From: Agrobacterium vitis
GTDB lineage: Bacteria > Pseudomonadota > Alphaproteobacteria > Rhizobiales > Rhizobiaceae
Direction: 5' to 3'
DNA length: 64,000 nt
Assembly: GCF_037039395.1 (NCBI RefSeq)
Contig: NZ_CP146244.1
Coordinates: forward strand, 496,001 to 560,000
Shown here: piece after piece, positions 43,643 to 61,514 of the stretch
How the letters are laid out: the number at the start of each line of letters is the position of its first letter
Position numbering within the stretch: the stretch's first letter is position 1
Program-made: the position numbers and the translations under genes
The notes under the pieces: generated by a model
What the model was told of the DNA's origin: nothing
Seen by the model: the letters and a program-made list of their open reading frames with translations, nothing else
Databases searched by the model: none

Positions 43643-44935
43643 ATGATGATTCCAGGCGACAATTTGTCGTGGAGTAATTGGTCAGGCAGCGTGGAGACCA
43701 AACTGAAAGCAATTCTTCGTCCCAGGACCAAGGAGGAACTGGAGAGTGCCATCCTCTCGGCGCCTGGACCGCTCCGGCTCGTTGGTTCGGGCCATTCATT
43801 TACGCCGCTTGTCTCAACCCCTGGAACGATCGTGGATCTGTCGGCTCTATCCGGCTTGATCGATTATGACCGTGATGCCCTGACGGCAACGATTGGAGCG
43901 GGCACCAAGCTTGGCGATCTGACGGAATTGCTCGCCGGGATTGGTCAAGCGCTGCCCAACATGGGCGATATCGACAAACAGTCTGTCGCTGGCGCGCTTG
44001 GCACGGCAACGCATGGCTCGGGACTTAGCCTGGGCGCTTATCATTCGCAGTTGAAAGGCATGCAATTCATCGATGGTCGCGGTATGCACCGGGAATTTAC
44101 AGCCGGACGCGATGACGAGATGATCCATGCGACCGGTGTGACGCTTGGTAGTTTCGGAGCCTTGACGGCCGTCACCTTTCAGAATGTCCCGGCTTATAAT
44201 CTGCGCCGCAAGCGGACAATGCTGCCGATTGGCGATACGCTTGAAAACTTCGAAAGCCTGATGGCAGCCCATCGATCGGCGGAGGTTTTCTTTGTTCCCT
44301 TTGCCAATCATGCTGTTTTTCAGACATTGGATATCGCTGACGGGCAGGGTGGTTTTCAAGTCACGTTGGAGGACGAGGACGCTATTGCGACGCTGAAAAA
44401 AATCAGAACCTTTCTCCGCTGGTTTCCGGGCTTGCGGCGCAAATTGATCGGCAATGCCATGGCAAAGCTGTCCGATGAGGAAGCCGTGGGTGAATGGATG
44501 AAGGTCTATGTCACCGACCGCCAGACCAAGTTCAATGAAATGGAATATCATTTGCCGTTCGAAGAGGGAGCCGGAGCTCTGGCGGAAATCATTGAACTGA
44601 TTGAGAAACGTTTTCCGGAGATCTATTTTCCGATTGAAGTCCGTGCCGTCAAAGGCGACGAATTCTGGCTAAGCCCGTTCTACAAGCGTGACACGTGTTC
44701 GATAGCCATTCATCACGGCATCGGGGAAAATCCGGCGGCGTTCTTCCTTGCTGCCGAAGCCGTGTTTCGCAGGCGGGGCGGGCGACCGCATTGGGGTAAA
44801 TTGCATAACCTGACAGCCGCTGATCTGGCCGGCATCTATCCGCGATTTAAGGACGCGATGGAGATCAGATCCGAAATCGATCCCGAAAATCGCTTTATCT
44901 CGCCTTACATGGCGAAGCTTCTTGGGGTTCGGTAA
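43643..44935 (+). CDS. FAD-linked aldonolactone oxidase-like protein (D-arabinono-1,4-lactone oxidase family)
   Basis: 430 residues; the second ATG (43646) has better spacing from GGGGAGG. The FAD-binding PCMH domain covers about 20-190 (LRLVGSGHSFTPLVSTPGTI, GQALPNMGDIDKQSVAGALG, TATHGSGLSLGAYHSQLKGM). The ALO-type C-terminus includes the family motif HWGK in GGRPHWGKLHN and ENRFISPYMAKLLG. It probably oxidises a sugar lactone, polyol or related alcohol with oxygen or another acceptor. The PLP-enzyme gene begins inside its stop codon (TAATG), so the two act together. Confidence 0.88.
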   Translation: MMIPGDNLSWSNWSGSVETKLKAILRPRTKEELESAILSAPGPLRLVGSGHSFTPLVSTPGTIVDLSALSGLIDYDRDALTATIGAGTKLGDLTELLAGIGQALPNMGDIDKQSVAGALGTATHGSGLSLGAYHSQLKGMQFIDGRGMHREFTAGRDDEMIHATGVTLGSFGALTAVTFQNVPAYNLRRKRTMLPIGDTLENFESLMAAHRSAEVFFVPFANHAVFQTLDIADGQGGFQVTLEDEDAIATLKKIRTFLRWFPGLRRKLIGNAMAKLSDEEAVGEWMKVYVTDRQTKFNEMEYHLPFEEGAGALAEIIELIEKRFPEIYFPIEVRAVKGDEFWLSPFYKRDTCSIAIHHGIGENPAAFFLAAEAVFRRRGGRPHWGKLHNLTAADLAGIYPRFKDAMEIRSEIDPENRFISPYMAKLLGVR

Positions 44936-46101
44936 TGGCTGAAGCCGATTATTTTCGGATGCTCTCCGATGCGCTTTCCCAGGCTGACCTGTTTCGTCCC
45001 GTGCTTGTTGTCGACCGAGATCGGCTCGATGCAAATATTGCCACGATTGCGCGCGGTCTCGCGCCGGGTCTTGGCCTAAGGGTCGTCGATAAGTCTCTGG
45101 CATCCCTCCCATTGCTCGAGCGTATTCTGACACAAGCCGGAACGATGCGGCTGATGAGCTTCCATCTGCCGATAACCTGTGCCGTATTGGAGGCTTTCCC
45201 GAAGGCGGAAATCCTGTACGGGAAACCGCTTCCTATAAGAGCGCTTGCGGCTTGGATGCGGCTCGCGTCTCCTCATCTGGTCGATGATCTTCTGCGCCGC
45301 ACCGTGTTTCTGATCGATAGCCCGGACCGGCTCGATCAATATGCGGCATTGACGCGCGAAGCTGGGCAAACAATCAGAATAGCGTTTGAGACGGATACCG
45401 GCATGCATCGCGGTGGGTTTGAAACGCCTGATGCGCTGGCTGCCATCTGCGCGCGCGCCATTCAGCAAAAGGAATTGAGAATAGAGGGGCTTGTCGGCTA
45501 TGAGGCGCATATCCCGGAGGTCGCGCGTCTCATCGGAGGCGCTGCGGAAAGGGAGAAAGTCGTATCGCGCATCAAGGCCTTTGTTTCGGTCTTTCCGGAT
45601 GGCGCGTGTACCATCGTCAATACGGGAGGCAGTAAAACCGCGCTCTCCTATCATGATGCCGGTGCCGCGAATGAAGTCTCCGTGGGCTCGGCTTTCCTGA
45701 AGCCGACGGATTTCGACATGCCGTCTCTTCAGGACGTGCAGCCTGCCGTGTTTATTGCCACGCCCGTGTTGAAAGTGGAGGAGGTCCGCCTGCCGGGGCC
45801 TCCGTTGCTGACAAGCCTGATGCAGGCGACAGGCTTTTTTCCGCGCAAGGGGTGTTTTCTCTATGGCGGCAAGTGGATGGCCAAGCCGGTTTTTCCCAAA
45901 GGCATGCGGGAAAACCGGATCTGGGGGCTTTCATCCAATCAGCAGATGATGGCTCTCCCTTACGACAGTACCTTAAAGCCCGACGATTTTGCTTTCTTTC
46001 GCCCGACCCAGAGCGAGGCGGTGCTGCAACATTTCGATGGAATTCACGTTTTTTCCAAAGGCCGGATTATTGAAACCTGGCCCACTCTTCCGCCGGGTTG
46101 A
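44935..46101 (+). CDS. DSD1-like PLP enzyme (D-threonine aldolase / D-serine dehydratase family)
   Basis: 388 residues with a fold-type III (alanine-racemase-like) layout. DLFRPVLVVDRDRLDANIAT leads into LGLRVVDKSLASLPLLERIL, where K of VVDKS is the expected PLP lysine. RIAFETDTGMHRGGFETPDA and TIVNTGGSKTALSYH follow as phosphate-binding parts. The C-terminal DSD1-type beta domain is less clear: the metal-binding His-x-Cys signature of D-serine dehydratases was not seen, so an aldolase, deaminase or racemase role is open. Its start overlaps the flavoprotein stop. Confidence 0.82.
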   Translation: MAEADYFRMLSDALSQADLFRPVLVVDRDRLDANIATIARGLAPGLGLRVVDKSLASLPLLERILTQAGTMRLMSFHLPITCAVLEAFPKAEILYGKPLPIRALAAWMRLASPHLVDDLLRRTVFLIDSPDRLDQYAALTREAGQTIRIAFETDTGMHRGGFETPDALAAICARAIQQKELRIEGLVGYEAHIPEVARLIGGAAEREKVVSRIKAFVSVFPDGACTIVNTGGSKTALSYHDAGAANEVSVGSAFLKPTDFDMPSLQDVQPAVFIATPVLKVEEVRLPGPPLLTSLMQATGFFPRKGCFLYGGKWMAKPVFPKGMRENRIWGLSSNQQMMALPYDSTLKPDDFAFFRPTQSEAVLQHFDGIHVFSKGRIIETWPTLPPG

Positions 46102-46109: not shown

Positions 46110-46160
46110 GCTTGTGATATTTTCAGGCATCGGTTCCATTCCGAGCATCCATTGGCATAC

Positions 46161-47342
46161 TCAAAATTCGATCAGATAGCCCAATCCAACGGCGACCGCC
46201 CAATCATGCTTGGCTGTTGCATCATAGGTCGCTCCGGCGCTGACGCTCTGCGATCCGGCCGTCAGGTAAGACACGGAGGTGCCGAGATCGAATTTACCGA
46301 ATTTGGTTTTGTACTCGGCGCCTAGTCCGAGCGACCATGTGTCGGTCGTAATGTCTGCTCCTGTCCCGACGCCTTCATCCCAGGTCACATTGATGGTTCC
46401 AGACAGTTTTTCTGTAAATTCATGACCGACACCAATCTGGACCGTATAGCCGTCCTTGTAGTTGAAGGTCTTGTCGCTTGTGCCAAGCCCGGTGACGTCA
46501 TATCTGAAGTTTTGAAGAACGCTCCAGTCTGTCCAGGTCAAGGAACCGTAAACCAGCCAACCCGGCGCCACGCCGGTCTGGGCAGACAGCTTGATCGACT
46601 GCGGGAGGGTTCCGGTTCCGTTAGCAGGTGCAGTGTCTGTCACACCGGCGGCGGCGGCAAGCGCTGAGGGCGTAAATGTCCCCTCCGCATCGTGCGACAC
46701 CTGCGACCGGTACAGGAGCTGGAAGCGCATGGCATATTCGGGAATGTCGTAAGCGGCACCAACTCGATAGCCTAAGGCACCGTCATCCTTCAATCGAATA
46801 TTGCCGTAAAGGGTATTCTCCTTATACTCGAAGCTTTCCAGAAAAACGCCGCCGATCATGTAAAAGCGGCCCGGCCCTGCGTCGACCCGCACATCGCAGG
46901 TCGCACCATATTCATCCGTCGAAAACTGCATCTTTGAGGTCGGATTGACGAGTGCCAATCCTTGGCTCACAGCTGTGGTATATTCGGCGTTCTGGGCTTC
47001 CCTTCCATACGTTGCAGATGCGCCAAATGGTTGCGTATATGTCAAAGCGCAGGCAATACCGGAACCCAGTGTTGCCTTGACGGCGACGCTTGGTATCCAA
47101 AACTCATCCGAATAGGCTTTATCAGAGGCACGTGCGCCGTTCAGGGTTGAAAATGAGCGGCTTGGTGAGACATATATCGCTCCGGTGCGGAAACTATAGT
47201 TTCCATCCGTAAAGAGAATATCGGTGTCAGCTTCGCCTCGGCTAAAACCTCCGGCAAGTGCAAGGCAAGGCGCAAACGATATTGCGCCGACACATATTGC
47301 CAGCGCAAACTGAGGTGCTTGCCAAAAACAGTGTCTGTTCAT
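46161..47342 (-). CDS. OMPP1/FadL/TodX-family outer-membrane transport protein
   Basis: 393 residues with a signal peptide (SFAPCLALAGG). The FadL features are alternating beta strands, the region SPSRSFSTLNGARASDKAYS in place of the usual N-terminal hatch, and the strand-rich second half ending in the aromatic GLGYLIEF. FadL-type channels admit hydrophobic compounds such as fatty acids or aromatics. This fits a cluster of flavin oxygenases acting on poorly water-soluble substrates. It converges with the PLP-enzyme gene (60 bp between ends). Its upstream region has a 58-nt repeat copy. Confidence 0.9.
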   Translation of the reverse strand: MNRHCFWQAPQFALAICVGAISFAPCLALAGGFSRGEADTDILFTDGNYSFRTGAIYVSPSRSFSTLNGARASDKAYSDEFWIPSVAVKATLGSGIACALTYTQPFGASATYGREAQNAEYTTAVSQGLALVNPTSKMQFSTDEYGATCDVRVDAGPGRFYMIGGVFLESFEYKENTLYGNIRLKDDGALGYRVGAAYDIPEYAMRFQLLYRSQVSHDAEGTFTPSALAAAAGVTDTAPANGTGTLPQSIKLSAQTGVAPGWLVYGSLTWTDWSVLQNFRYDVTGLGTSDKTFNYKDGYTVQIGVGHEFTEKLSGTINVTWDEGVGTGADITTDTWSLGLGAEYKTKFGKFDLGTSVSYLTAGSQSVSAGATYDATAKHDWAVAVGLGYLIEF

Positions 47343-47382
47343 TTCGTTCCCTCTTTTTTGTTATGTGTCGTCTCGAGCCTGT

Positions 47383-47440
47383 CAGGTTCAGATCGAAGCA
47401 GTCATCCTTTGGATTTCTTTGTTTTCGTTTGTTTTTTCGG
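47383..47440 (-). repeat. 58-nt dispersed intergenic repeat, copy 3
   Basis: On the minus strand it runs from CCGAAAAAACAAACG to ATCTGAACCTG and ends 40 bp before the FadL start. It matches copy 2 at 45 of 58 positions with no gap. The two best-kept blocks are 22 and 14 nt with an identical 22-nt gap between them. Confidence 0.75.
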
Positions 47441-47790
47441 AAAGCTTTGGCCTGCCTATCCCCCGACAAATGCCAAATCGACTGCCGCCTCCAGCGGTTC
47501 GATGCCCTGGCCGCAACGGTTCAAACGCGCGGCATATGACGGTTCCCCAATTCAACGACGATAAATTGGACAGCGCTTCCATCAAGGGAAAACCTGGTCA
47601 TATTGGTGTCATATGAGGCCAAGTCTTTGCCCGCGGATGGAGCAATTCTGTTCAGCTGGGATCGGGATATGGTTCTTGTCCCAACGGATGAGACTGGAAG
47701 GTCATGCTGGTCATGAAGGAAACCGATGACTTACGCAAAACTCTGCCGTATCGGACCGAACCTGACCGCTATACGGTCGCCCCAACGCGG
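47441..47790. other. Intergenic, about 350 bp, no gene seen
   Basis: Upstream of the FadL gene and downstream of the aldehyde dehydrogenase gene. It contains GGTGTCATATGAGGCCAA (47610-47627), which recurs nearly unchanged near 50671 upstream of the MFS/AraC pair. No ribosome binding site with a credible reading frame was found. Confidence 0.35.
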
Positions 47791-47828
47791 CTACAGCGCC
47801 GTGCGTTTAAAATCGCACGGCGCTGTAG
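47791..47828. repeat. Palindrome of the CTACAGCG family, possible terminator
   Basis: Perfect 15-bp arms CTACAGCGCCGTGCG (47791-47805) and complement (47814-47828) with an 8-nt AT loop. It equals hairpin B of the composite repeat at 57565-57669 in its outer arms. Lying 84 bp after the aldehyde dehydrogenase stop, it may also end that transcript. Confidence 0.75.
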
Positions 47829-47911
47829 GGGTTCAGTAAAAATTACAATATTATCAATGTCTTAGATGTCTGAATATGACACTTCAAGCGTTATTTAGTC
47901 GCCTGTTGGCA

Positions 47912-49351
47912 TTAGCCGCGGGTCATGAACCAGGCCAGCAGCTTAGCCATGCGTCCGTAGGGAGGCATGGCGAGGCGGGCAGGATTGAAAAGACGGACTT
48001 TCGCAATGCCGCGGGCATGGGAAAAGCGCTTGAAGCCCTCATGGCCGTGATAGGCCCCCATGCCGCTTGGCCCGATACCGCCAAACGGCAGGTCGTTTTG
48101 AGCGATATGCAGCAGCGTCCCATTGATGGTGACATTGCCGGAAATCGTGTTCGACAGTGTTTTTTTCTCGGTCGCCCGGTTTCCAGTGAAGAGATAGAGC
48201 GCCAGAGGGCGCGGGCGCTCGCGGATAAATTTCAATGCAGAATCAAAGTCCTCATAGGGAATAAGGGGCAGGACCGGCCCGAAGATTTCCTCTTCCATCA
48301 GCAAGCAGTCGCCAGGCGGATCGATTGCCAGCGTGGGAGCAATCGCTCGCCCTTTGGAGGGCATGTCAATATCAGCGGTGATGAGTTTGACCCCACGAGC
48401 GCGGCATTCCTCGATCCCTTTGAGCAATCGTTCATGCGCTCTGGCTCCGACAAGGCTTGAATACTGCCCTTGGCCCGCGTGTTGGGGATCGGCGTGTTGA
48501 TCCTCTGCCTGTTTTGGATAAAAAGCCTCTGCATGAGAGATCAGCGCGGATGCGATTTCCTCGATTTTTGATTTTTCGACCAGAACATAGTCCGGCGCAA
48601 TGCAGGTCTGGCCCGCATTCATCAGTTTTCCGAAGGCGATATCACGGGCCGCACCGGCAATGGAATAATCCGGGGCGATGATGACAGGTGACTTGCCACC
48701 AAGTTCCAGGGTGAGCGGGGTAAGATTAGCGGCCGCTGACGCCATAACCTTGCGGCCCACGGCGGTTGAGCCGGTGAAAATCAGATGATCGAATGGCAGG
48801 GCAGAAAAGGCTGCGGCAATCTCCACTCCTCCTTGGATAACGGCAACCTCCTCCGGGGTGAAATAGGCCTCGACAAGCTTGGAAAGAAGAGCCGAGGTCT
48901 CCGGCAGCAATTCCGATGGCTTGATGATCGCCCGGTTTCCGGCAGCCAGAATGTCAATCAGCGGGCCAAGAGCCAGTATAAGCGGATAGTTCCACGGCAC
49001 CATAATGCCAATCACCCCGAGCGGCTGGTATTGAACCCAATTTGCAAGCTGGAGAAACTCAATCGAGCGCCCACGGCGTTCGGGTTTCATCCATTTGCGC
49101 AGATGGGACCGTGTGTGGCGAAGCGCGCCCATCAGCGGGGCAATCTCCAACTGCACCGTTTCATGATGGGATCTATGACCAAAATCCCGCGAAACCACGT
49201 CGCACAACGCTTGTCGGTTCTCCTTCAGCAATCGGCCGATCCGGTTCAGCCGGTCCAGACGCAAGGTCAGTGACGGATAAATGTCATGCAGGAAGGATTG
49301 ACGCTGGCGTTCCAGGACAGGCTGGAGAGTTTCAATGGCCATATCGAACAA
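47912..49351 (-). CDS. Coniferyl-aldehyde-dehydrogenase-type NAD(P) aldehyde dehydrogenase
   Basis: 479 residues. TTG 49351 has GGAG at good spacing; ATG 49342 is the alternative. Catalytic features: NWVQYQPLGVIGIMVPWNYP, AAGNRAIIKPSELLPETSAL, IFTGSTAVGRKVM, general base E in LELGGKSPVI, and nucleophile Cys in NAGQTCIAPDYVLV. The late motif PFGGIGPSGMGAYHGHEGFK completes the fold. The best fit is the coniferyl aldehyde dehydrogenase (CalB-like) group, which oxidises aromatic or long-chain aldehydes. It is cotranscribed with the MFS gene just upstream. Confidence 0.92.
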   Translation of the reverse strand: MFDMAIETLQPVLERQRQSFLHDIYPSLTLRLDRLNRIGRLLKENRQALCDVVSRDFGHRSHHETVQLEIAPLMGALRHTRSHLRKWMKPERRGRSIEFLQLANWVQYQPLGVIGIMVPWNYPLILALGPLIDILAAGNRAIIKPSELLPETSALLSKLVEAYFTPEEVAVIQGGVEIAAAFSALPFDHLIFTGSTAVGRKVMASAAANLTPLTLELGGKSPVIIAPDYSIAGAARDIAFGKLMNAGQTCIAPDYVLVEKSKIEEIASALISHAEAFYPKQAEDQHADPQHAGQGQYSSLVGARAHERLLKGIEECRARGVKLITADIDMPSKGRAIAPTLAIDPPGDCLLMEEEIFGPVLPLIPYEDFDSALKFIRERPRPLALYLFTGNRATEKKTLSNTISGNVTINGTLLHIAQNDLPFGGIGPSGMGAYHGHEGFKRFSHARGIAKVRLFNPARLAMPPYGRMAKLLAWFMTRG

Positions 49352-49362
49352 GGTTCACTCCG

Positions 49363-50499
49363 CTATTTATTGACGACAGTCGCTGGAAAGCTGCGGTGCA
49401 GTTGGCCAAAGATGATTGCAGCAAAGATCGCCGCGATTGCCAGGGGCAACAGACAGGACCAGGCGAAAAGGCTTGAATCGTAGCCTTCAAAGATTGGCCC
49501 GGCAATTGCTGTTCCCAGCGTGGCCCCCACTATGGCGACCACCAGGGTTCGTGACATCACCGACCCATCTGGGTCGTTTTCGGTCAGTATACCCGTGATA
49601 AACGGGGTCACGATATAGAAGCCGATATTGACCAGAACCTGCGTCATCACGAAAATCAGGGGTGTTAGCATGGTGAACAGGAAATAGATCGACATCGCCA
49701 TGGTCAGAAAACCCAGCAGCACGGCTGGCAGTCTTTTGGCCTTGTCATGGGTGAAAGAGGGAATGATTGCCCCCAGAAAGCCTACCAGCGACGATAGGGC
49801 GAGATAGAAGCCAACTTCACCATTGCTGAGCCCCACTTTTTCCCCCACATAGCCGCAGACTGCCCATTGCGCTGCCTGTACCCCATAAACGAGAAATACA
49901 ACCATCATTGCAAGCAGCATTTTCCCATTGTTGAGTTTGGCATGATGGCTTGCCACAGGCAGCCGGGACGAGCGCCTGGCAACGAAAAAGATAAGCGGCG
50001 CAAGGATGGCGGTGAACGCGCCCAGCATGAGAAAGACAGGTGCTCCGGCTTCGTCCGGTGGCATGAGCGATACCACGAAAAGCAGCAGTCCCATGGCAGT
50101 TCCGCCAATCAGGCTAAGCGCGCCCCAGTATCTCTCGGCATTGGCAAGCGAGGCAAGGCTCATTGAAACCAGGCTGAACAAAGCGCCTTCCCCCAGGCCG
50201 GTTGCAAATCTTGCGGTGGCAAGGCTGTAGGGGTTTTGAAGCCAGAAACTCAGTGCTTCACCGGCCATAACCGCGACAATGCCGCCAATCGCCACGGCTT
50301 TCCATGATCTGAGTGCCAGTTTGGCTAGGAATATCCCGTAAAACGCAATTCCCGCGAGTTCGGCGCTGGCGACGATTGTCGCCATGGCTTCGCTATAGCC
50401 GGCCAGTTTGCTTATCGACAGAACGACGACGGGCATAACCATTGTACCATTCAGCGCGACCGCATAGGCAGCACTCAAGCCGAGTATCCACAAAAGCAT
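49363..50499 (-). CDS. MFS transporter
   Basis: 378 residues from ATG 50499, 7 nt after GGGAG; ATG 50505 lies directly on that site. About 12 hydrophobic segments, from LLWILGLSAAYAVALNGTMV to LFAWSCLLPLAIAAIFAAII. The family loop is shortened (AKLALRSWKAVAIGG). NDPDGSVMSRTLVVAIVGATL near the end resembles sugar or aromatic-acid MFS porters. It lies 11 bp from the aldehyde dehydrogenase gene, so the pair probably imports and oxidises one compound. It is divergent from the AraC regulator at 50954. Confidence 0.87.
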   Translation of the reverse strand: MLLWILGLSAAYAVALNGTMVMPVVVLSISKLAGYSEAMATIVASAELAGIAFYGIFLAKLALRSWKAVAIGGIVAVMAGEALSFWLQNPYSLATARFATGLGEGALFSLVSMSLASLANAERYWGALSLIGGTAMGLLLFVVSLMPPDEAGAPVFLMLGAFTAILAPLIFFVARRSSRLPVASHHAKLNNGKMLLAMMVVFLVYGVQAAQWAVCGYVGEKVGLSNGEVGFYLALSSLVGFLGAIIPSFTHDKAKRLPAVLLGFLTMAMSIYFLFTMLTPLIFVMTQVLVNIGFYIVTPFITGILTENDPDGSVMSRTLVVAIVGATLGTAIAGPIFEGYDSSLFAWSCLLPLAIAAIFAAIIFGQLHRSFPATVVNK

Positions 50500-50953
50500 C
50501 GTCATTCTCCCAGAGAGGTTTCCCCTCTGAGAGGTTGATCCCTAGAGAGGCCGGGTCGCTTTTCGCTTACCCAATGTTCCGCCTGTTCTTATTGTCCGGC
50601 CCTTGAAGAGCGCGGTGAAATTCAGAATAGGAGGACGACACCGCATCACAAGGGAGTTCGGGGACACTGTGGTGTCATATCCGGCCAATCTATCTTCCAG
50701 GGCCGCCCCGGCATTGACTGCTGTCATGGAGGTGTCTTTGTATTTCATGCTCCGCGCAGCGGCTATACTTGGGCTGAATGGTCAGTTGCCAGCCAAGGAA
50801 TATTGTAGGCTTGGGGAAAGTGCCGCATGATACCTGCTATTTCCGGCCATAACCGGCTCTCTTGGAGGAGAATGAAGCAGGTGCAGGCATGGCTGACGCG
50901 GTGGAAATGGACGTGAAGGATACGTCACAAGGATAAGTCATAAGGGGGGTCCG
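50500..50953. promoter_or_regulatory. Divergent control region between MFS/aldehyde dehydrogenase and AraC regulator
   Basis: About 450 bp, presumably with promoters for both directions. GGTGTCATATCCGGCCAA (50671-50688) matches 16 of 18 positions of a sequence upstream of the FadL gene (47610-47627). It is a possible shared regulator site, but could be chance at this length. No other gene is seen in this gap. Confidence 0.35.
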
Positions 50954-51985
50954 ATGAAGACAGTCGATGCGCGTTACGTGACTGCCAATATCCCGGCATT
51001 TCTCATTCGCAGCCTCGTCATGACGCTGACGGATTTTGGTCTTGATGCTTCGCGACTAACTGCGGGCCTCGGCATTCCCATGGAGGATCTTGCGGACCCA
51101 GCCTGTCGTGTTTCGTTTCGCCAGGGACGCGAGGCGATCCTGCGCGCCATGAAAATGACCAGGGGCAAGGCGCTTGGACTGGAGACCGGGATTCGCGAAA
51201 AGATTACCTCTGTTGGCCTGGTCGGCTACGTGATGGTGACGGCAGCGACTGTGGGTGATGCGGTCAAGCTTGGTCTCGATCTGCAAAAAGATACCGGCAG
51301 CATGCTGGAATTCGACACCAGGGAAAGCCCGGAGGGTGTCGTCGTCACGGCGGCAAGCCGGTTTCACGATCCCGATATCTATGTTTTCCTGGTGGAAGAG
51401 GCTTTTGCCAGCTTCATGGGGGTAGCCCACGGTCTTGTCGGGGAGGGCTTCAAGCCGGTCCGGGTCGATTTTGCTTATCCGGCGCCAGCCCATACGGAAG
51501 CCTATCAACGGGTCTTCGGGTGTCCTATTCGATTTGGCCAGATGGAAAACGCGTTTATCTACGATGCCGCCTGGTACAAGCAGCCGCTGCTGACCTCCGA
51601 TCCTCTTAGCCACCGCCAGCTCCTTGAATTCATGGCCTATAACCGGGCCAGAAGCCGCGAAGCGGCGGAAATTATCGAATCCGTCGAAAGGGTTCTCCGG
51701 CAGAAACTGCATAGTCGCACCCATATTTCCAAGGTGGCCCGGGCGCTTGGCATGAGCGAGCGCACCCTGCGCCGCAGACTTGCCGAAAGCGGGGTATCCT
51801 TCCAATCGCTTCTGGATGATCTTCGCAAGAACCGCACGCTCGAACTATTGGGCAACAGGAACATGTCTGTCGAGCAGATCGCCTTTGCGGTCGGATTTTC
51901 GGACCCTCATAATTTCCGGCGCGCCTTCCGCCGTTGGACCGGCACCACGCCCGGTGCGCTTCGTGCGGATCTCTCACCTATTTGA
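50954..51985 (+). CDS. AraC-family regulator with Arabinose_bd-type N-terminal domain
   Basis: 343 residues behind AAGGGGGG. The N-terminal domain (RSLVMTLTDFGLDASRLTAG, VGLVGYVMVTAATVGDAVKL, FKPVRVDFAYPAPAHTEAYQ) is that of the OruR/ArgR/QuiR-like AraC regulators. The C-terminal HTH pair spans about 235-340 (ISKVARALGMSERTLRRRLA, SVEQIAFAVGFSDPHNFRRA). These proteins usually activate a neighbouring catabolic operon when its substrate is present. It stands between the divergent MFS/aldehyde dehydrogenase genes and the tandem kinase/aldolase operon 130 bp downstream, so it is the likely activator of both. Confidence 0.93.
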   Translation: MKTVDARYVTANIPAFLIRSLVMTLTDFGLDASRLTAGLGIPMEDLADPACRVSFRQGREAILRAMKMTRGKALGLETGIREKITSVGLVGYVMVTAATVGDAVKLGLDLQKDTGSMLEFDTRESPEGVVVTAASRFHDPDIYVFLVEEAFASFMGVAHGLVGEGFKPVRVDFAYPAPAHTEAYQRVFGCPIRFGQMENAFIYDAAWYKQPLLTSDPLSHRQLLEFMAYNRARSREAAEIIESVERVLRQKLHSRTHISKVARALGMSERTLRRRLAESGVSFQSLLDDLRKNRTLELLGNRNMSVEQIAFAVGFSDPHNFRRAFRRWTGTTPGALRADLSPI

Positions 51986-52115
51986 CCGGTAAAGACCCCT
52001 CAAAGGACAGCTTCACCGCTACGCATCAGGCGGGTATCCCCCCTATTATAGGTGCAATAGCCAATAAAAATGGGGAGTGGCCTGGAATCTATCCAGGCTG
52101 CATGCACGGCAAGAG

Positions 52116-53714
52116 ATGGCCAAGTCTGACCAATATGTTTTATCGATCGATCTTGGCACCAGTGGCTGCAAAGTCGGATTGGTGTCGACGACCGGACAGG
52201 TGGTTGCCTGGGCATTTCGGCCGGTTCCGCTCCAGGTCATCGATACGATCGGGGCAGAGCAGGACCCCTCGCAGTGGTGGAACGCCTTCATTGAGGCAAG
52301 CCAGGATGTGCTCCGCCAGAGTGCCGCATTGCGTCAGAATATTGTTGCGATCTGCTCATCCACCCAAGGGGAGGGAACCGTTGCCGTTGACCGCGACGGC
52401 AATGTGCTGATGAACGCGATTATCTGGCTCGATATGCGCGGCGCCCGCTATCTGAAGAAGGAAATGCGGGGGGCAATGAAGGTTGCGGGCTATGACGCGA
52501 TCAAGTTGCAGAAATGGTTGAGGCTGTGTGGCGGCGCCCCGGCTTTGTCCGGCAAGGACCCCGCGGGCCACATGCTGCTGATCCGCGATGCTTTCCCTGA
52601 TATTTACGAGAAGACCTACAAGTTTCTCAACGTTCTCGATTTCTTCAATCTGCGGCTGACGGGCCGGTTTTGCGCCACGCAGGATTCCATTCTCACCTCC
52701 TGGGTGACTGACAACCGCGACGTCAACCATATCCGCTATGACGATGGGTTGATCGGTGCCAGCGGCATCGACAAGGCGAAATTTCCCGATCTCGTCAGGT
52801 GTACGGATATCGTTGGAACCCTGCTTCCTCCCGTCGCCGATCTGTTGGGCCTGTCACCGAAAACGCCGGTCGTTGCCGGTGCCATCGACAATTCAGCCGC
52901 CGCCATCGGCGCTGGAACGCTGGCCGATTATGATGCCCATCTCTACATGGGCTCATCGTCCTGGATCTCGGCGCATGTGCCTTTCAAGAAAACCAGTGTC
53001 ATGGACCAGATCACGTCTGTTCCTTGTCCGGTGCCGTCGAAATATCTGATGATCGCCATGCAATCGAGCGGGGCGAGTAATATCGCCTTCCTGAAGGACC
53101 GGATCGTCTTCCATGACGATGGCCTGATCGATTCCGAACCGACGCCTGATACTTACAGACTTCTCGATGAGATTGCCGCCCGCACCCCTGCCGGAGCGGC
53201 TGGCATGATGTATCTGCCCTGGCTTTTCGGTGAGCGCTGCCCGGTGGATGACCCTACCCTTCGGGCCGGTATCTTCAACATGAGCATGGAGCATAACCGC
53301 GAGACATTGGTGAGGGCGGTCTTCGAAGGCGTGGCGCTCAATACACGGTGGATGATGAAGCCGGTCTCGCGGTTTCTTGGCCGCAGACCTGAGGCAATCA
53401 CCATGATCGGCGGCGGCGCGATGTCGCCCGCGTGGTGCCAGATCTTTGCGGATGTTCTGGGCGTCCAGATCCGCCAGCCGCATGATCCGATGAAGGCCAA
53501 TGCACGCGGTGCGGCCTTCATCGGAGCTGTAGGGCTCGGCCTCATCCAGTTCGATGATGTCGCGCGCCATGTGGTGATCGACCGGGTCTATGAGCCTGAT
53601 CCGGCAACGCAGCGGCTCTATGACGAGCGCTTCGGTATCTTCACGGAACTCCATCGGCGCCTGGCGCCGCTTTACAAACGCTTGAACGGATCGAAGGGCA
53701 AGATTCATGGCTAA
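52116..53714 (+). CDS. FGGY-family carbohydrate kinase
   Basis: 532 residues from ATG 52116 (AAGAG adjacent); a longer frame to 52077 is possible. N-terminal ATPase motif YVLSIDLGTSGCKVGLVSTT, phosphate-2 region in VVAGAIDNSAAAIGAGTLAD, and C-terminal domain with TMIGGGAMSPAWCQIFADVL, PHDPMKANARGAAFIGAVGL. It is xylulokinase-like in general shape but not a close match to a named enzyme I can recall. It should phosphorylate a sugar, polyol or similar hydroxy compound. A short hairpin (CCTGGA/TCCAGG, 52081-52097) lies 19 nt before the start. The stop overlaps the aldolase gene by 8 bp. Confidence 0.92.
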   Translation: MAKSDQYVLSIDLGTSGCKVGLVSTTGQVVAWAFRPVPLQVIDTIGAEQDPSQWWNAFIEASQDVLRQSAALRQNIVAICSSTQGEGTVAVDRDGNVLMNAIIWLDMRGARYLKKEMRGAMKVAGYDAIKLQKWLRLCGGAPALSGKDPAGHMLLIRDAFPDIYEKTYKFLNVLDFFNLRLTGRFCATQDSILTSWVTDNRDVNHIRYDDGLIGASGIDKAKFPDLVRCTDIVGTLLPPVADLLGLSPKTPVVAGAIDNSAAAIGAGTLADYDAHLYMGSSSWISAHVPFKKTSVMDQITSVPCPVPSKYLMIAMQSSGASNIAFLKDRIVFHDDGLIDSEPTPDTYRLLDEIAARTPAGAAGMMYLPWLFGERCPVDDPTLRAGIFNMSMEHNRETLVRAVFEGVALNTRWMMKPVSRFLGRRPEAITMIGGGAMSPAWCQIFADVLGVQIRQPHDPMKANARGAAFIGAVGLGLIQFDDVARHVVIDRVYEPDPATQRLYDERFGIFTELHRRLAPLYKRLNGSKGKIHG

Positions 53715-54360
53715 ATTCATAGCCCAGCGGCAGGAGATTGCCGATATGTGCCGCTATTTTGCGGATAACGGCTATTTTGCCGGAACCGGCGGCAATATCG
53801 GTGTCCGCGTCGATAGCCGATTGATGGCTGTCACCCCCTCGGCTACCGACTATTACGCAGTTGAAGCCAAAGACGTGGTGATCCTCGATATCGAGACCCT
53901 CGACATTGTCGAGGGTGACATGACGCCGACCGTGGAAAAAGGACTGCATGCCAGGATGCTCCTCATGCATCCTAACCGTCATGCCAGCGTTCATACCCAC
54001 CAGCCCATCGCAAGCGCTGTCGCCCTGCTACATGAAATCCTGCCCTGGCCAAGAGGCAGCGATCTTGGGGCGCTTGGTCCCCACATTGCGCTTATTCCCT
54101 ACAGGCCGTCGGGCACGGGAATGCTGGCAAAGATTTTTGCCAAGTCGCTGCGGCCCGACATCTTTGCGTATCTGCTGGCCAGCCACGGCGTCATTTGTGC
54201 GGGGGCCGATCTCAAGACCGCTGCGGGCATGATCCGCAAGATCGAAGCCGCTGCCGCCGTCCATCTTCGTGAACGCATCAACAAACACCTCAACCTCGAT
54301 CGGCAACTCCAGGCGTTCATTCTGAACGTTCTGGACAAGGCTGAGACCAAGGGAGCTTGA
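53707..54360 (+). CDS. Class II aldolase/adducin-family protein
   Basis: 217 residues, fuculose-phosphate-aldolase size. Expected zinc ligands and acid are present: E in TPTVEKGLHARM, the HTH pair in ASVHTHQPIASAV, and a later His in LLASHGVICAGAD. The phosphate/substrate region NGYFAGTGGNIGVRVDSRLM and TPSATDYYAVEAKDV are also typical. It would split or epimerise a phosphorylated keto compound, consistent with the kinase gene that overlaps it upstream. The stop is one base from the aminotransferase ATG. Confidence 0.93.
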   Translation: MAKFIAQRQEIADMCRYFADNGYFAGTGGNIGVRVDSRLMAVTPSATDYYAVEAKDVVILDIETLDIVEGDMTPTVEKGLHARMLLMHPNRHASVHTHQPIASAVALLHEILPWPRGSDLGALGPHIALIPYRPSGTGMLAKIFAKSLRPDIFAYLLASHGVICAGADLKTAAGMIRKIEAAAAVHLRERINKHLNLDRQLQAFILNVLDKAETKGA

Positions 54361-54361
54361 A

Positions 54362-55822
54362 ATGAACATGGCAGCTCGTAACTCAGAACTTTCCTACAGC
54401 ATCAGTGCCTGGCCTGATAACAAAGACCTCATGGACCGGCTGAACGCCCTGCTGAAACAACCGCCCAAAGGCATCTCCAAGACCAATATGCCGAAGGTGC
54501 TCGATTATTTCGAACAGAAATGCCAGACCTCCAAGGCCTGGGCGGCCCGGGCGGCGGAGGTCATTCCGGGTGGTGTCCAGCATAACCTCGCCTTCAATTA
54601 TCCGTTTCCCATTGCGGCTACGAAAGTCGATGGCGCCTATATGTGGGATGCGGACGGCAATCGCTATACCGACTTTTTGCAGGCGGGTGGACCGACATTG
54701 CTCGGCTCCAACTATCTGCCGGTGCGCGAAAAAGTGCATCAGCTGATCGATGAATGCGGCCCGGTGACGGGCCTGCTTCACGAATACGAATTCAAGCTCG
54801 CCGAGATCATCCGCAAATTCATGCCTGGTATCGAAATGTTCCGCATGCTCGGCTCCGGCACGGAAGCCTGTATGGGGGCCATTCGTCTGGCCCGCGCCCA
54901 TACCGGCAAGAAATGGGTGATCAAGGTCGGTGGCGACTATCATGGCTGGAGCGACCAGATGGTCTACGGCATGCGGGTGCCTGGTACGGGCCGGCGCGAA
55001 GCCACGGGCATTCCGAAAGGCGTCACCGGCTATACCCAGGAAGTTTTCCCCAATGAGATTGGCACGCTCCGGCGCAAGCTGATGCTGAACCGTATTCGCG
55101 GCGGCACAGCAGCGGTTATTCTCGAACCGCTGGGGCCGGAAAGCGGCACGCGGCCTGTGACGCCCGAATACAATCGCGAAGTTCGCAAACTCTGCGACGA
55201 ATTCGGCGCCTTGCTGATCTTCGATGAGGTCGTCACCGGTTTTCGTGTCGGCATGGGTGGCGCGCAAGGCTATTTCAACGTGACGCCCGATATCACCGTG
55301 TTCGGCAAGTGCCTCACCGGTGGCTATCTGATGGCAGGTGGGATCGGCGGTCGCAAGGATATCATGATGACGCTGGTCGGCGGGATCGGCACATCGAGCA
55401 AGCGCGCCTTCGTCGGCGGTACGCTTTCGGCCAATCCGCTGTCCTGCGTGGCCGGTTATTATGCAATCGAGGAAATGGCACGCACCAATGCGCCGGTTAT
55501 TGCCGGGCGGGCCGGAGACCGGCTGGCCAAAGGCTTGAAGGAGATCCTGAGTAGGCTCGGCCTTCCCTATGTGGTCTATAATATGGGCTCCATCGTCCAT
55601 CTCCAGACGTCCGCCGTGCTGTTGATGAGCATGCGCAATCCGATCAAGCTGATGCGTGAAGCCAATGCCCGCAAGCACCTGATGGAGGAAATGGGAGCGG
55701 CCTATATGGCCCATGGCATCCTGACCCTGGCGGGTAGCCGCATCTATACCAGTATGGCGGACACCGATGAGGTGATCGACGATGCCCTTGAACGTTTTGA
55801 AACCGTTTTCCGTTTGGTGTGA
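54362..55822 (+). CDS. Class III PLP aminotransferase / glutamate-1-semialdehyde aminomutase-like
   Basis: 486 residues. AAEVIPGGVQHNLAFNYPFP and MWDADGNRYTDFLQAGGPTL are the entry segments of GSA-aminomutase-like enzymes. LGSGTEACMGAIRLARAHTG precedes the PLP region KVGGDYHGWSDQM, LLIFDEVVTGFRVGMGGAQG gives the cofactor aspartate, and VFGKCLTGGYLMAGGIGGRK the Schiff-base lysine. It probably moves an amino group to or from the carbon skeleton handled by the kinase and aldolase. A true HemL is unlikely given the operon and the extra N-terminal 55 residues. Confidence 0.92.
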   Translation: MNMAARNSELSYSISAWPDNKDLMDRLNALLKQPPKGISKTNMPKVLDYFEQKCQTSKAWAARAAEVIPGGVQHNLAFNYPFPIAATKVDGAYMWDADGNRYTDFLQAGGPTLLGSNYLPVREKVHQLIDECGPVTGLLHEYEFKLAEIIRKFMPGIEMFRMLGSGTEACMGAIRLARAHTGKKWVIKVGGDYHGWSDQMVYGMRVPGTGRREATGIPKGVTGYTQEVFPNEIGTLRRKLMLNRIRGGTAAVILEPLGPESGTRPVTPEYNREVRKLCDEFGALLIFDEVVTGFRVGMGGAQGYFNVTPDITVFGKCLTGGYLMAGGIGGRKDIMMTLVGGIGTSSKRAFVGGTLSANPLSCVAGYYAIEEMARTNAPVIAGRAGDRLAKGLKEILSRLGLPYVVYNMGSIVHLQTSAVLLMSMRNPIKLMREANARKHLMEEMGAAYMAHGILTLAGSRIYTSMADTDEVIDDALERFETVFRLV

Positions 55823-55823
55823 C

Positions 55824-56477
55824 ATGCTTATGAACGTCAACACTGTCTCTATCGAGGAGGCTCTGGGCCAGGCTGCGGCACGCCTTGCGGGAAAAGGGCT
55901 TCTCAAACCGGGCGATGTGCTGTCGCAACGCATTCCCGAACAAAACGCCTTTGTGGCTGTCCGGATCAACTCCGGCCAGGACGTGCCCGATGAATTCGAA
56001 TGGACAAGCCTTTCCGCGCCGCCGCAGAGCTTGCATCACCGCATCTATCGGGCACGCCCGGATGTGGGTGCCATTGCCTCAGGCGGGTTGACCTGGACAT
56101 CAGCGCTGGCGCGTCTCGACCTCTCCATGCCGGCAATATTCGATGAGCAGGTCCGTCATCTGGGCCTGGAGGCAAAACGATTGGGCATGTGCTCGACCGA
56201 TGACCCGACAAAGGCCTTGTCGAACGGCGCCAACGCTTATTGCCTTGATGACATGGCGCTGTGCTTTGGCATGGGTCTTGAGCGCCTGCTGCTTAATATC
56301 GAGACCCTGGAAAAATGTGCTGAATGTTTCATTCTTGCGCAAAGTGCCACGGTCAAGGTCAAGCAGATCCCATGGCTCATCAGGTTCATTGCCAATGGTC
56401 GTTTGAAGAAAGATCAGAAAGAGGCCGCAGCCCGGCATCTTCGCGGAGAACGATCAATCATGAAGGCCGGATACTGA
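55824..56477 (+). CDS. Class II aldolase-like protein lacking the metal ligands
   Basis: 217 residues, the same length as the active-looking aldolase two genes upstream. It begins at ATG 55824, one base after the aminotransferase stop. The fold segments align (PPQSLHHRIYRARPDVGAIA with VEKGLHARMLLMHPNRHASV), but the Glu is Gln and the HTH pair is replaced by SGG. The third His (LLASHG) is gone at NAYCLDDM. The zinc site is therefore missing. It could be a regulatory or structural partner of the catalytic aldolase, or bind a different ligand. Confidence 0.75.
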   Translation: MLMNVNTVSIEEALGQAAARLAGKGLLKPGDVLSQRIPEQNAFVAVRINSGQDVPDEFEWTSLSAPPQSLHHRIYRARPDVGAIASGGLTWTSALARLDLSMPAIFDEQVRHLGLEAKRLGMCSTDDPTKALSNGANAYCLDDMALCFGMGLERLLLNIETLEKCAECFILAQSATVKVKQIPWLIRFIANGRLKKDQKEAAARHLRGERSIMKAGY

Positions 56478-56485
56478 ATGAAGCG

Positions 56486-56604
56486 CTACAGCGCCGTTCC
56501 AACATAGTGGGCGGCAGGCCAATGGCACGATTGCTGCGTGGAACTGTCTTTTTGCCTTCGGGCCGTCCGCAGATTTGTGCTTCGTAAAACGCACGGCGCT
56601 GAAG
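56486..56604. repeat. Degenerate CTACAGCG-family repeat
   Basis: Outer arms CTACAGCGCCG (56486-56496) and CGGCGCTGAAG (56594-56604) match hairpin B of the composite element with one mismatch. The interior is longer and unrelated. It fills the gap between the aldolase-like and SDR genes and begins 9 bp after the former's stop. Confidence 0.55.
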
Positions 56605-56649
56605 GCAGGCCGGAGAAACAGGCGACAATAGCCGGGGAGGAGATCGATC

Positions 56650-57450
56650 ATGCATTTCTCAGGAAAGATTATTTTGATCGTCGGCGCGTCCTCCGGCATG
56701 GGGCGGCTGCTTGCCCTGCGGCTTGCAGGCGAGGGTGCCAGGGTGATCGTTACGGCGCGGCGCAAGCCGATGCTCATCGAATTGTCCGAGGATATCAGCA
56801 GTGCCGGTGGCGAGTGCCTGGCCATCGCGGCTGATGCAACCGATCCGGATGCCGCCGCCGAGGTGGTGAAAACGGTGGTCGAGCACTATGGCCGGATCGA
56901 CATGATCTATCTTAACGCAGGCGGTGCGCCAGCGCTGGATATGCGGCTGATGAGCGCCGTTGAGGTTAACGCCTGCATGCGTTTGAATTACGATGTCGTG
57001 GTCAATTACCTCTTCCCGGTCTTGAAGCAGATGATGCGACAGGGTGGCGGCCATGTCGCGCATACGAATTCGCTCGCTGGCTTCCTCGGCGTACCGCTTC
57101 AAGGCCCTTATTCGGCAGCCAAGGGAGCGGCGATGCTGCTCATCGACACCTGCCGCATCGAATTTGCCCGCTATGGCATCAAGTTCACCAGTGTTTATCC
57201 TGGGTTTGTCGCCACCGAGGCGACGGCAAGCGATGGGATGCCTGCGCCTCTTGAGATTTCGGCGGACAAGGCCGTTGACCACATCCTCTATGCGCTGAGA
57301 AATGAGAAGGCGGATTATCTGTTCCCGTTCACCCTGCGCTGGTTAATCCGGCTCACCCATATTCTGCCCAAGCCTCTAACGCTCTGGATTTTGGGCAAGT
57401 CGATGCCGGACTTGCCGGAGATCGGACATACGCAACCGATCTCGACCTGA
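56650..57450 (+). CDS. SDR-family oxidoreductase
   Basis: 266 residues. Cofactor motif IILIVGASSGMGRLLALRLA, NAG motif in YLNAGGAPAL, and catalytic S141, Y154 and K158 (HTNSLAGF, PYSAAKGA) have classical spacing. ARRKPM after the second strand points to NADP(H). The hydrophobic C-terminus (FPFTLRWLIRLTHILPKPLT) suggests membrane association or a hydrophobic substrate. GGGGAGGAGATCGATC precedes the ATG. It is the last gene of the kinase/aldolase/aminotransferase operon, separated from it by a repeat. Confidence 0.92.
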   Translation: MHFSGKIILIVGASSGMGRLLALRLAGEGARVIVTARRKPMLIELSEDISSAGGECLAIAADATDPDAAAEVVKTVVEHYGRIDMIYLNAGGAPALDMRLMSAVEVNACMRLNYDVVVNYLFPVLKQMMRQGGGHVAHTNSLAGFLGVPLQGPYSAAKGAAMLLIDTCRIEFARYGIKFTSVYPGFVATEATASDGMPAPLEISADKAVDHILYALRNEKADYLFPFTLRWLIRLTHILPKPLTLWILGKSMPDLPEIGHTQPIST

Positions 57451-57758: not shown

Positions 57759-58982
57759 TTACACGATGAGACCCTTCATAGGCTGAACACTGTCCGATCC
57801 TGGAAATACGACGCTGGCCAGATGACCGGCACTGGCGCCGAGCAGATCGACCGCCATGCCTTTGATGACGGCGCGAATGTCGGTGGTGGCGGCGAGATCC
57901 CGGCCTTCGAACAGCTGGTTCTGTTTGAGCCCCGGCCAATCGGTGATGACGCGGCCACCCCGCACGGCACCGCCAGCGAGAAAGGCGGTCGTGCCGGTGC
58001 CGTGATCGGTTCCGTCAGTGCCGTTGATGCGTGCCGTGCGACCGAATTCGGTCGCGACGATGATCGCCGTATCCTTCCATGCGGGTCCAAGTTCCTGTTC
58101 GAAGGCGGCAATAGACTTGTCGAGCCCGGCCAGAAGCTTGGCCAACCGGTCGATTTCCTGCGCGTGGGTGTCCCAACCCTCGAAGGCGAGTGCTGCGACA
58201 CGCGGGCCATCCGGTTGGGCCAACAACCGGGCAGCGCCGCGGGCCATCTGCTCCATGCCGTTCGGGTCGCCGGGGCCGCCCTTTGATTTCATGTCGAGGC
58301 CGGATGCGATCTTGCCGGTCTGGATGCCTTCAATCAGAAGCTTCGAGAGCATAGGGTCCGTGCGGCCATAAAGATCCATCAGGCGCGGTGCAAGGTCGCC
58401 GTCGGCGGGTCTAAGCACGGATGGTGCCCAGCCGAGTACGGGTGCCTTGCCGCGAATGACGAGGGGTGCGGTTGCCCCGACGGAAAGCCCTTGCACGCGT
58501 TCTGCCGCACCGGGAGCGATCTTGTCACCGGCTGGCAATCCCTCCAGCATACGGTTCATCCAGCCGGTTTCGACATGGCCTGGCGTCGGAAAACCGGATT
58601 CCAGCACATCCTGTCCGTCGAAATGCGAGCGCTCACGATAGGCGGTGGCACTGGCATGCACCACGGCGGCCTGATTGGCGCGGAACAGGCGTTGGAAATT
58701 CGGCATCGAGGGATGCAGTCCGAAAAAGCCATCGAGCGGCAGCACCGGCTTGTCTCCATCGAGCCTCAGCGCAATCGACTGGCGCAGGCCTTCATAATCG
58801 GGATCGCCGATGGGCGGAACGGCGGTCAGCCCATCCAGCGCGCCGCGCAGGATGATGGTGACGAAGCGGGGGTCGCGTCCGCCAGCCGCATGGGCAAATC
58901 GGGGCATGAAGGCCCAGGCAAACAAGGCGCCGGATGTGCCGAGAACGGCGCGGCGGGTGGGGGAGAGGTTTTCGCACAGCAT
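57759..58982 (-). CDS. DUF1501 domain protein, Tat-exported
   Basis: 407 residues with a twin-arginine signal SPTRRAVLGTSGALFAWAF and cleavage near AHA. Features of the DUF1501 (sulfatase-like/alkaline-phosphatase-fold) family are FVTIILRGALDGLTAVPPIG, AYRERSHFDGQDVLESGFPT, EGWDTHAQEIDRLAKLLAGL and VATEFGRTARINGTDGTDHG. It acts outside the cytoplasm; the reaction is not known. It almost always occurs beside DUF1800 proteins, as here (3 bp gap), and is the last gene of the sigma-factor operon. Confidence 0.93.
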   Translation of the reverse strand: MLCENLSPTRRAVLGTSGALFAWAFMPRFAHAAGGRDPRFVTIILRGALDGLTAVPPIGDPDYEGLRQSIALRLDGDKPVLPLDGFFGLHPSMPNFQRLFRANQAAVVHASATAYRERSHFDGQDVLESGFPTPGHVETGWMNRMLEGLPAGDKIAPGAAERVQGLSVGATAPLVIRGKAPVLGWAPSVLRPADGDLAPRLMDLYGRTDPMLSKLLIEGIQTGKIASGLDMKSKGGPGDPNGMEQMARGAARLLAQPDGPRVAALAFEGWDTHAQEIDRLAKLLAGLDKSIAAFEQELGPAWKDTAIIVATEFGRTARINGTDGTDHGTGTTAFLAGGAVRGGRVITDWPGLKQNQLFEGRDLAATTDIRAVIKGMAVDLLGASAGHLASVVFPGSDSVQPMKGLIV

Positions 58983-58985
58983 GGT

Positions 58986-61080: not shown

Positions 61081-61514
61081 CGTAACTCCTGGGCAATCTC
61101 GCCTTCGGTCATGATATTGCCAAACGCCGTCGCGGTATCGGTCATCGGGATCTGGGTGGGCGGCGCAACTATTGCAACCGCCAGCGCACCGGTAAGGCCC
61201 CCCGCAAGGCCGACGCCGAGAAGCCCCGCGCCGACCAGCCAGCGATGCAGCCTGCGGCGCAGTGTGACGCGCTTGTCCGCCGATTGCAGGATGCGGCCTG
61301 TCAGGGCAGCGGACGGAGAAGGTGGGGCTGCCCGTGCGAGAAACACATCCAGGCGGGACGCCTCCTTCACCATGGCGCGACCGGCTTCGGTTGCGGCAAA
61401 AATCTCAGCCGCACCGCGCCGGTCTTCGGGCCAGCGTTTGCGGTCGCCGCCATAGGCTTCGACGAGCGCGCGAAATCGCTCCGCATCCATGCCTTGCTTG
61501 TTGTCATCACTCAT
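61077..61514 (-). CDS. Putative anti-sigma factor, single-pass membrane protein
   Basis: 145 residues from ATG 61514, which stands 7 nt after CGGAG; ATG 61520 is too close. The cytoplasmic part (RFRALVEAYGGDRKRWPEDR, EAGRAMVKEASRLDVFLARA) is typical of short rhizobial proteins next to ECF sigma genes. One membrane segment lies near 95-118 (WLVGAGLLGVGLAGGLTGAL), followed by a short outer tail. Overlaps the sigma gene by 8 bp and the metal-sensor-like gene by 4 bp. The zinc-anti-sigma His/Cys motif is absent. Confidence 0.75.
   Translation of the reverse strand: MSDDNKQGMDAERFRALVEAYGGDRKRWPEDRRGAAEIFAATEAGRAMVKEASRLDVFLARAAPPSPSAALTGRILQSADKRVTLRRRLHRWLVGAGLLGVGLAGGLTGALAVAIVAPPTQIPMTDTATAFGNIMTEGEIAQELR

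Follow-up and report, generated by a model that had tools for sequence, protein, structure and literature searches.

A candidate operon for the catabolism of phytosphingosine-type bases in Agrobacterium vitis, with an aldolase putatively divided between two genes

Which compound would a bacterium deaminate, phosphorylate and cleave with the products of one compact gene block, and why should a class II aldolase be accompanied by a degenerate relative of itself? These questions are raised by a plus-strand gene block in Agrobacterium vitis, located in a stretch of 64,000 nucleotides (contig NZ_CP146244.1, positions 496,001 to 560,000), hereafter referred to as the window, in which genes for an FGGY kinase, a class II aldolase, a class III aminotransferase and a degenerate class II aldolase ("pseudo-aldolase") follow a gene for an AraC-family regulator. 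We suggest that this is probably an inducible operon for the catabolism of phytosphingosine-type bases (2-amino-1,3,4-triols), by a route involving a heteromeric aldolase. That the substrate class is the sphingoid bases is proposed with good confidence, and that phytosphingosine is degraded by this particular route is, on balance, favoured. The joint claim, that phytosphingosine is burnt as a long-tailed ketose and that the aldolase is a split-active-site heteromer formed by duplication and complementary loss, each product alone being inactive, is more tentative and close to evenly balanced.

The regulator (50954..51985) has Arabinose_bd and HTH_18 domains (PF12625, 166.5 bits; PF12833). The kinase gene probably starts at 52122 (52122..53714; the open reading frame (ORF) opens at 52077; PF00370, 137.9 bits; PF02782, 95.9 bits) and overlaps the aldolase gene (53707..54360; PF00596, 120.9 bits) by 8 bp. 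The aldolase gene is separated by 1 bp from the aminotransferase gene (54362..55822; PF00202, 166 bits), which is in turn separated by 1 bp from the pseudo-aldolase gene if the latter starts at 55824 (55824..56477; ORF opening at 55782); the pseudo-aldolase scores 20.6 bits with Aldolase_II, for which the cut-off is 22.2. These four genes are a real, tightly packed unit. A short-chain dehydrogenase gene (SDR; 56650..57450, plus strand; adh_short, PF00106, 148.2 bits) follows after a gap of 172 bp.

The distribution of this four-gene core was studied in a set of loci retrieved with an alignment of 17 aminotransferases (the best 80 of 580 confirmed matches; the loci are not independent), in which the presence of genes was scored by tblastn with reference proteins. 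All four core genes were present together in 47/47 loci outside the Chloroflexi (31 loci) and Actinobacteria (2 loci), and their co-occurrence is therefore not due to chance. The 47 loci came from alphaproteobacteria (6), Burkholderiales and other beta- and gammaproteobacteria (20), Pseudomonas (17), Granulicella (1) and three spirochaete metagenome-assembled genomes (MAGs), one titled Spirochaetaceae (L018) and two Leptospiraceae (L019 and L020). SDR relatives were found in 15 of the 47, so the SDR is an accessory member. Of 199 genomes of the same order searched for orthologues of the aminotransferase (E up to 1e-130), one had a match, the window's own genome, which makes the unit an accessory trait of scattered occurrence. 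Among named sequences, those closest to the pseudo-aldolase come from Agrobacterium vitis (89–94% identical), and a search for similar plasmids gave no match. An earlier reading of the window, made from the sequence only, had described the block as a candidate undescribed pathway of five genes and had set the occurrence of the four-gene core in other genomes beforehand as a test. Its gene positions, gaps and divergent transporter/dehydrogenase pair agree with the ORFs and with the families assigned by Pfam, and the core recurs as it anticipated. The unit does look catabolic, and no description of it was found in that part of the open-access literature which the searches covered, but the SDR is only loosely attached.

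The catalytic glutamate and the three metal-binding histidines were invariant in 80/80 aligned aldolases. The best solved relative of the window's aldolase by sequence was 6btd, which is DrdA, an enzyme described as splitting 5-deoxyribulose 1-phosphate into dihydroxyacetone phosphate (DHAP) and acetaldehyde (PMC6079011); its substrate can be regarded, by analogy, as a short-chain analogue of the one proposed here. The best partial matches in NCBIfam were the fuculose-phosphate (96.4 bits) and ribulose-1-phosphate (88.8 bits) aldolases, both below cut-off. For the pseudo-aldolase, a sequence search yielded no related solved structure, and its structural model (pLDDT 94.9) adopts the FucA fold (TM 0.72 with 4c24 and 0.74 with 4c25). 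In 48 pseudo-aldolases, the glutamate was retained in two and the metal histidines in none, one and seven, never all together.

The residues lost and kept by the two proteins are complementary. The sequence FDEQ was present in 48/48 pseudo-aldolases and in 0/48 of their partner aldolases. In the Chloroflexi loci (aminotransferase in 31/31, aldolase in 30, kinase in 22, pseudo-aldolase in none; some contigs are short), the aldolase is a single-gene enzyme with both half-sites (L041, L053 and others), and FDEQ was found in 31/32 single-gene aldolases from Chloroflexi and Actinobacteria, the remaining one (L086) reading TDEQ. The aspartate of FDEQ aligns with Tyr113 of FucA, a residue described as acting from the adjacent subunit (PMC11841055). 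The single-gene aldolases share 73 conserved columns (at least 93%); 25 of these were retained by the partner aldolases only, including the metal and phosphate-site motifs, and 11 by the pseudo-aldolases only, including FDEQ and five towards the C-terminus; six were retained by both and 31 were mixed. In a tree of 46 rows, the 17 pseudo-aldolases formed one clade (support 100/99) and the 17 partner aldolases another (97/100), which is consistent with one duplication; the root is unsure, two outgroups being long branches, with one outgroup row dropped and one outgroup of 481 aa excluded by the length limit.

We consider it likely that the pseudo-aldolase is a trans-acting second subunit, and that the aldolase is a heteromer whose shared active site is divided between two genes. 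The first aldolase gene would provide the metal and phosphate half-site, and the pseudo-aldolase the half-site reaching in from the neighbouring subunit, with the FDEQ aspartate in the place of FucA Tyr113, together with the C-terminal part. No description of a heteromeric FucA-type aldolase was found among the open-access papers covered by the searches. The pseudo-aldolase might instead be a remnant of the duplication that works on its own as a regulator or a binding protein, a role that would suit its loss of the metal site and the long branch setting it apart. This seems unlikely, since the FucA fold is kept in the model, FDEQ is invariant in these proteins and missing from their partners, the conserved columns are retained in a complementary manner, and the pseudo-aldolase accompanies the aldolase in 47/47 loci.

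The other two core enzymes have conserved residues of their own: Asp256 of the kinase (numbered from 52122) was invariant in 71/71 aligned sequences, and Lys316 of the aminotransferase was conserved in 81/81. The aminotransferase scored below the curated cut-offs for glutamate-1-semialdehyde aminomutase (GSAM; 284.2 versus 398 for PRK00062, 262.6 versus 527.3 for TIGR00713), and it is nearer in sequence to the GSAM 4e77 (222.4 bits) than to 6hbs (87.8 bits), an aminopentol aminotransferase, presumably FumI, which acts on a sphingoid-like amine. Membership of the GSAM family and of the FumI family was thus rejected, and the enzyme would appear to constitute a subfamily of its own related to GSAM.

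From the computed gene content, linkage, residue patterns and fold, we infer the reactions, their order, the substrate and the induction as follows. The base would be taken up through FadL and the major facilitator superfamily (MFS) transporter encoded nearby. The class III aminotransferase would convert the 2-amine into a ketone, yielding (3R,4R)-1,3,4-trihydroxyoctadecan-2-one, that is, D-ribulose carrying an alkyl chain. The FGGY kinase would then phosphorylate the C1 hydroxyl of this long-chain 2-ketose, although the order of these two steps could be reversed, and the FucA/DrdA-type aldolase would cut between C3 and C4 to give DHAP and pentadecanal. The latter would be oxidised by the class 3 aldehyde dehydrogenase (ALDH) to pentadecanoate, for beta-oxidation. 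Retro-aldol cleavage between C3 and C4 of a 1-phospho-2-ketone needs a 4-hydroxyl group, and this points to phytosphingosine among the common sphingoid bases; sphinganine as a direct substrate of the aldolase, our initial idea, was dropped for the same reason. Sphingoid bases of the 2-amino-1,3,4-triol type are typical of plants and fungi. The configuration of D-ribo-phytosphingosine is 2S,3S,4R, and from it the deaminated compound was assigned by hand, by the Cahn–Ingold–Prelog rules, as (3R,4R). The products of FucA are described as (3R,4R), D-erythro (PMC11274987), so the stereochemistry at C3 and C4 fits this type of aldolase. The open-access papers covered by the searches contained no description of the proposed pathway.

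Several known systems resemble parts of the proposed route. As in the drdKIA system for 5-deoxyribose disposal, a 1-phosphorylated ketose would be cut by a FucA-family aldolase into DHAP and an aldehyde; here, however, an aminotransferase replaces the isomerase, the kinase belongs to another family (FGGY), the aldolase has a degenerate partner and the proposed substrate is long-chain. The L-fucose pathway of Escherichia coli (FucK and FucA) shares the FGGY kinase, the class II aldolase with conserved metal site and glutamate, and the D-erythro stereochemistry, but in the window's system the loop at the Tyr113 position is altered on the catalytic chain, and the conserved form, FDEQ, is on the product of the second gene. 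In the sphingosine kinase/sphingosine-1-phosphate (S1P) lyase pathway, phosphorylation and an aldol-type cleavage between C2 and C3 give a long-chain aldehyde and phosphoethanolamine. The proposed route would likewise use phosphorylation and aldol-type cleavage to free a long-chain aldehyde, but the nitrogen would be removed by transamination, cleavage would occur between C3 and C4, and the product would be DHAP; no S1P lyase-family lyase dependent on pyridoxal phosphate (PLP) was found among the 11 genes scanned (43643–57450), to which the search was limited. The aminopentol aminotransferase 6hbs, likewise of class III and with a sphingoid-like amine as its substrate, would be comparable but is distant in sequence, as noted above.

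Part of the case for a lipid substrate comes from the relatives. A neutral ceramidase gene was located inside the core locus in 7/47 loci, five from Pseudomonas (L031, L034, L039, L064 and L065) and two from spirochaete MAGs (L018 and L019); Pfam, run on two examples, identified the product by PF04734 and PF17048. A search of the genomes behind 50 of the 80 loci detected ceramidase in 8/50, within the core locus in seven of these eight and outside the fetched locus in the other (the genome of L024). Among 119 Pseudomonas genomes, ceramidase was present in 3/8 with the aminotransferase versus 1/111 without it (Fisher p 0.0008, which is only a guide, the genomes being related). A flavin adenine dinucleotide (FAD)-linked oxidase of the SphC type and a threonine-aldolase-like gene were present in the core locus in 11/47 cases (the aldolase-like gene of L028 matching at only 25%), with a cytochrome c gene in eight. 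This triad beside the core, cytochrome c–FAD oxidase–aldolase-like, has the same order and families as published for sphBCD, which encode a cytochrome, a flavin oxidoreductase and a threonine-aldolase-like enzyme, converge on the porin gene sphA and are controlled by the AraC regulator SphR (LaBauve and Wargo 2014, PMC3900636). In L118, the triad, with an oxidase of the ALO family, converges on a Phenol_MetA_deg porin gene adjoining an Arabinose_bd AraC gene, as in the published sphA/sphR layout. The likeness of the relatives to sphBCD was judged by families, gene order and the start of the L064 oxidase, which resembles a twin-arginine translocation (TAT) signal, and not against the P. aeruginosa sequences. 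FadL relatives lie beside the core in L010, L011 and L012, and an ALDH relative was found in 24/47 loci.

Apart from these core loci, one Pseudomonas genome (G301) has an sphBCD-type triad, an AraC gene, DUF1302, DUF1329 and ceramidase clustered at L117, 5793–15916, which suggests that DUF1302 and DUF1329 are lipid-handling partners of the ceramidase. The core was not seen in the 19-kb stretch of L117, G301 is outside the 8/119 genomes with an aminotransferase match, and its SphC frame contains one in-frame TGA. A second, distant 3-hydroxyaspartate aldolase-like gene was observed near the core in L028, L030, L038, L040, L042 and L044 (checked by Pfam in L038 only). In L019, a class I/II aminotransferase encoded next to the core was considered as a serine palmitoyltransferase and ruled out, as it exceeds the valine-pyruvate transaminase cut-off.

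The window has lipid-type neighbours of its own. Divergently from the AraC gene, on the minus strand, are the genes for the MFS transporter (49363..50505; PF07690, 43.1 bits) and the class 3-type ALDH (47912..49351; PF00171). The closest solved relatives of the ALDH are a steroid ALDH (9nxl, 356.5 bits), followed by 5myp, 5nno and the fatty aldehyde dehydrogenase 4qgk (303.6 bits), and by these similarities it is a candidate long-chain aldehyde dehydrogenase. A FadL/TodX outer-membrane channel (46161..47342, minus strand; PF03349, 66.9 bits) is a candidate lipid uptake route. Further away, on the plus strand and overlapping by 1 bp, are genes for a FAD-linked oxidase of the ALO/alditol oxidase family, a relative of SphC (43643..44935; PF04030, 176 bits; PF01565), and for a PLP-type protein resembling D-threonine aldolase and 3-hydroxyaspartate enzymes, a relative of SphD (44935..46101; PF01168, 59.3 bits). 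The best solved relative of the oxidase is xylitol oxidase 2vfr (145.8 bits), and the SphD-like protein weakly matches the D-threo-3-hydroxyaspartate dehydratase 4pb3 (29.8 bits). This pair (43643–46101) and FadL appear to belong to the unit, for which the block as first delimited was too narrow, and the pair may handle bases without a 4-hydroxyl group.

In its AraC regulator (Arabinose_bd and HTH_18), the adjacent flavin oxidase and threonine-aldolase-like genes, the outer-membrane channel and, in some relatives, the cytochrome c and ceramidase genes, the system resembles the SphR regulon of P. aeruginosa (sphA, sphBCD and cerN). The window's regulator and its SphR-like counterpart in L118 are 39% identical and have the same domain architecture. 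However, none of the members listed for the published SphR regulon is a kinase, a class II aldolase or a class III aminotransferase (PMC3900636). The ceramidase and sphBCD-type linkage in some relatives, together with FadL and the class 3 ALDH in the window, make a long-chain sphingoid base a likelier substrate than a free amino sugar.

The strongest competitor is a small substrate of the amino polyol or amino sugar alcohol type, which would be transaminated to a ketose, phosphorylated at C1 and cleaved to DHAP and a short aldehyde; this was the kind of substrate favoured by the sequence-only reading. Several observations suit it or weigh against a sphingoid base. The enzyme logic demands merely a 2-amino-1,3,4-triol, the best matches of the kinase are xylulokinases, and the aminotransferase is nearer to GSAM than to the sphingoid-like enzyme. 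The Chloroflexi loci contain, among the roles tested, mainly TetR (divergent, 28/31), MFS (21/31) and the core; no lipid-specific neighbour was seen in them, ceramidase was absent from the four Chloroflexi genomes tested, and the kinase was undetected in 9/31 of these loci, including the 21-kb loci L063 and L068. In two Burkholderiales MAGs, the core has a GH27 alpha-galactosidase gene (Melibiase_2) as a neighbour (L016:1388–2665 and L017:1427–2830, minus strand in both), which fits glycolipid or glycosphingolipid hydrolysis and sugar hydrolysis equally; in both it adjoins a TonB receptor-type gene. A weak match to Sugar_tr was also obtained with the MFS transporters of L019, L020 and L041.

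The lipid linkage itself is incomplete. Ceramidase went undetected in 40/47 loci, including flanks of up to 10 kb, and in 42/50 genomes, and only a minority of loci, from few independent lineages, have ceramidase or sphBCD-type genes next to the core. The association of the SphC-type oxidase in Pseudomonas is weaker than that of ceramidase (5/8 versus 24/111, one of the 24 being a broken partial match; p 0.02, the genomes being related). The window's oxidase and aldolase-like protein have diverged from the L064 pair (35% and 37% identity, respectively), its AraC protein is only 36–39% identical to SphR-like proteins, and no TAT start was seen by eye in the oxidase. The window had no match to the sphB cytochrome c (cytochrome c at E 0.01), a SphA-like porin or ceramidase, and its genome gave no ceramidase match, although the controls were also silent there and the same query matched in other searches.

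Against the small polyol, in turn, stand the ceramidase (7/47) and sphC/sphD-type genes (11/47) beside the core, the window's FadL and class 3 ALDH, and the fact that no ABC or phosphotransferase system (PTS) sugar transporter was found among the sampled neighbours run through Pfam. We consider such a substrate improbable. Of the earlier proposal, the logic by which kinase, aldolase, aminotransferase and ALDH would act together, the last taking the aldehyde released, is retained, and it is the amino sugar or polyol substrate class that now appears less likely, given the linkage to ceramidase, sphBCD-type genes, FadL and class 3 ALDH.

It is also conceivable, but quite doubtful, that the core acts on sphinganine and sphingosine as well, for instance after 4-hydroxylation, in one linear pathway with the SphC/SphD-like pair. 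The linkage of this pair in 11/47 loci would be consistent with this, as would the effect of P. aeruginosa sphBC on sphingosine, sphinganine and phytosphingosine alike, as described in PMC11893366. Near the core of L014 (Duganella), a gene of the fatty acid hydroxylase family (PF04116; 1617–2816, minus strand) was observed beside a TonB receptor gene, and this hydroxylase could supply 4-hydroxylated bases. However, cleavage between C3 and C4 is impossible for a 2-keto-3-hydroxy base without a 4-hydroxyl, and the motif scan for hydroxylases flagged two ORFs, of which one, that of L014, was checked by Pfam and is a member; the hydroxylase was therefore rejected as a recurrent partner. A biosynthetic unit, in which the aldolase would join DHAP to a fatty aldehyde and the aminotransferase would make an amino lipid, is highly improbable: both enzyme types are generally reversible, but the kinase, the ceramidase of some relatives, the ALDH and the divergently placed AraC gene are in keeping with degradation, and the scattered distribution (1/199 same-order genomes) suits an accessory catabolic trait.

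Other genes of the window lie around the unit. Downstream, a DUF1501/DUF1800 pair (57759–60554, minus strand) is not part of it, and neither is the ORF that follows (61507–62271), which by eye resembles a sigma factor. Upstream are a luciferase-like monooxygenase gene (36389–37816) and an HlyD/RND efflux pair (30079–34262), both on the plus strand.

The core genes carry the annotations of ordinary sugar genes, and their products most probably strip, phosphorylate and cut sphingolipid backbones of plant and fungal origin. This offers a complete route for 4-hydroxylated bases, which are common in plants and fungi, and assigns a role to genes that source records now call, for instance, glutamate-1-semialdehyde aminomutase or hypothetical protein. 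If true, the gene set would be a marker of bacteria that can feed on antimicrobial lipids, and the split aldolase would provide a clear natural case of a shared active site divided between duplicate genes.

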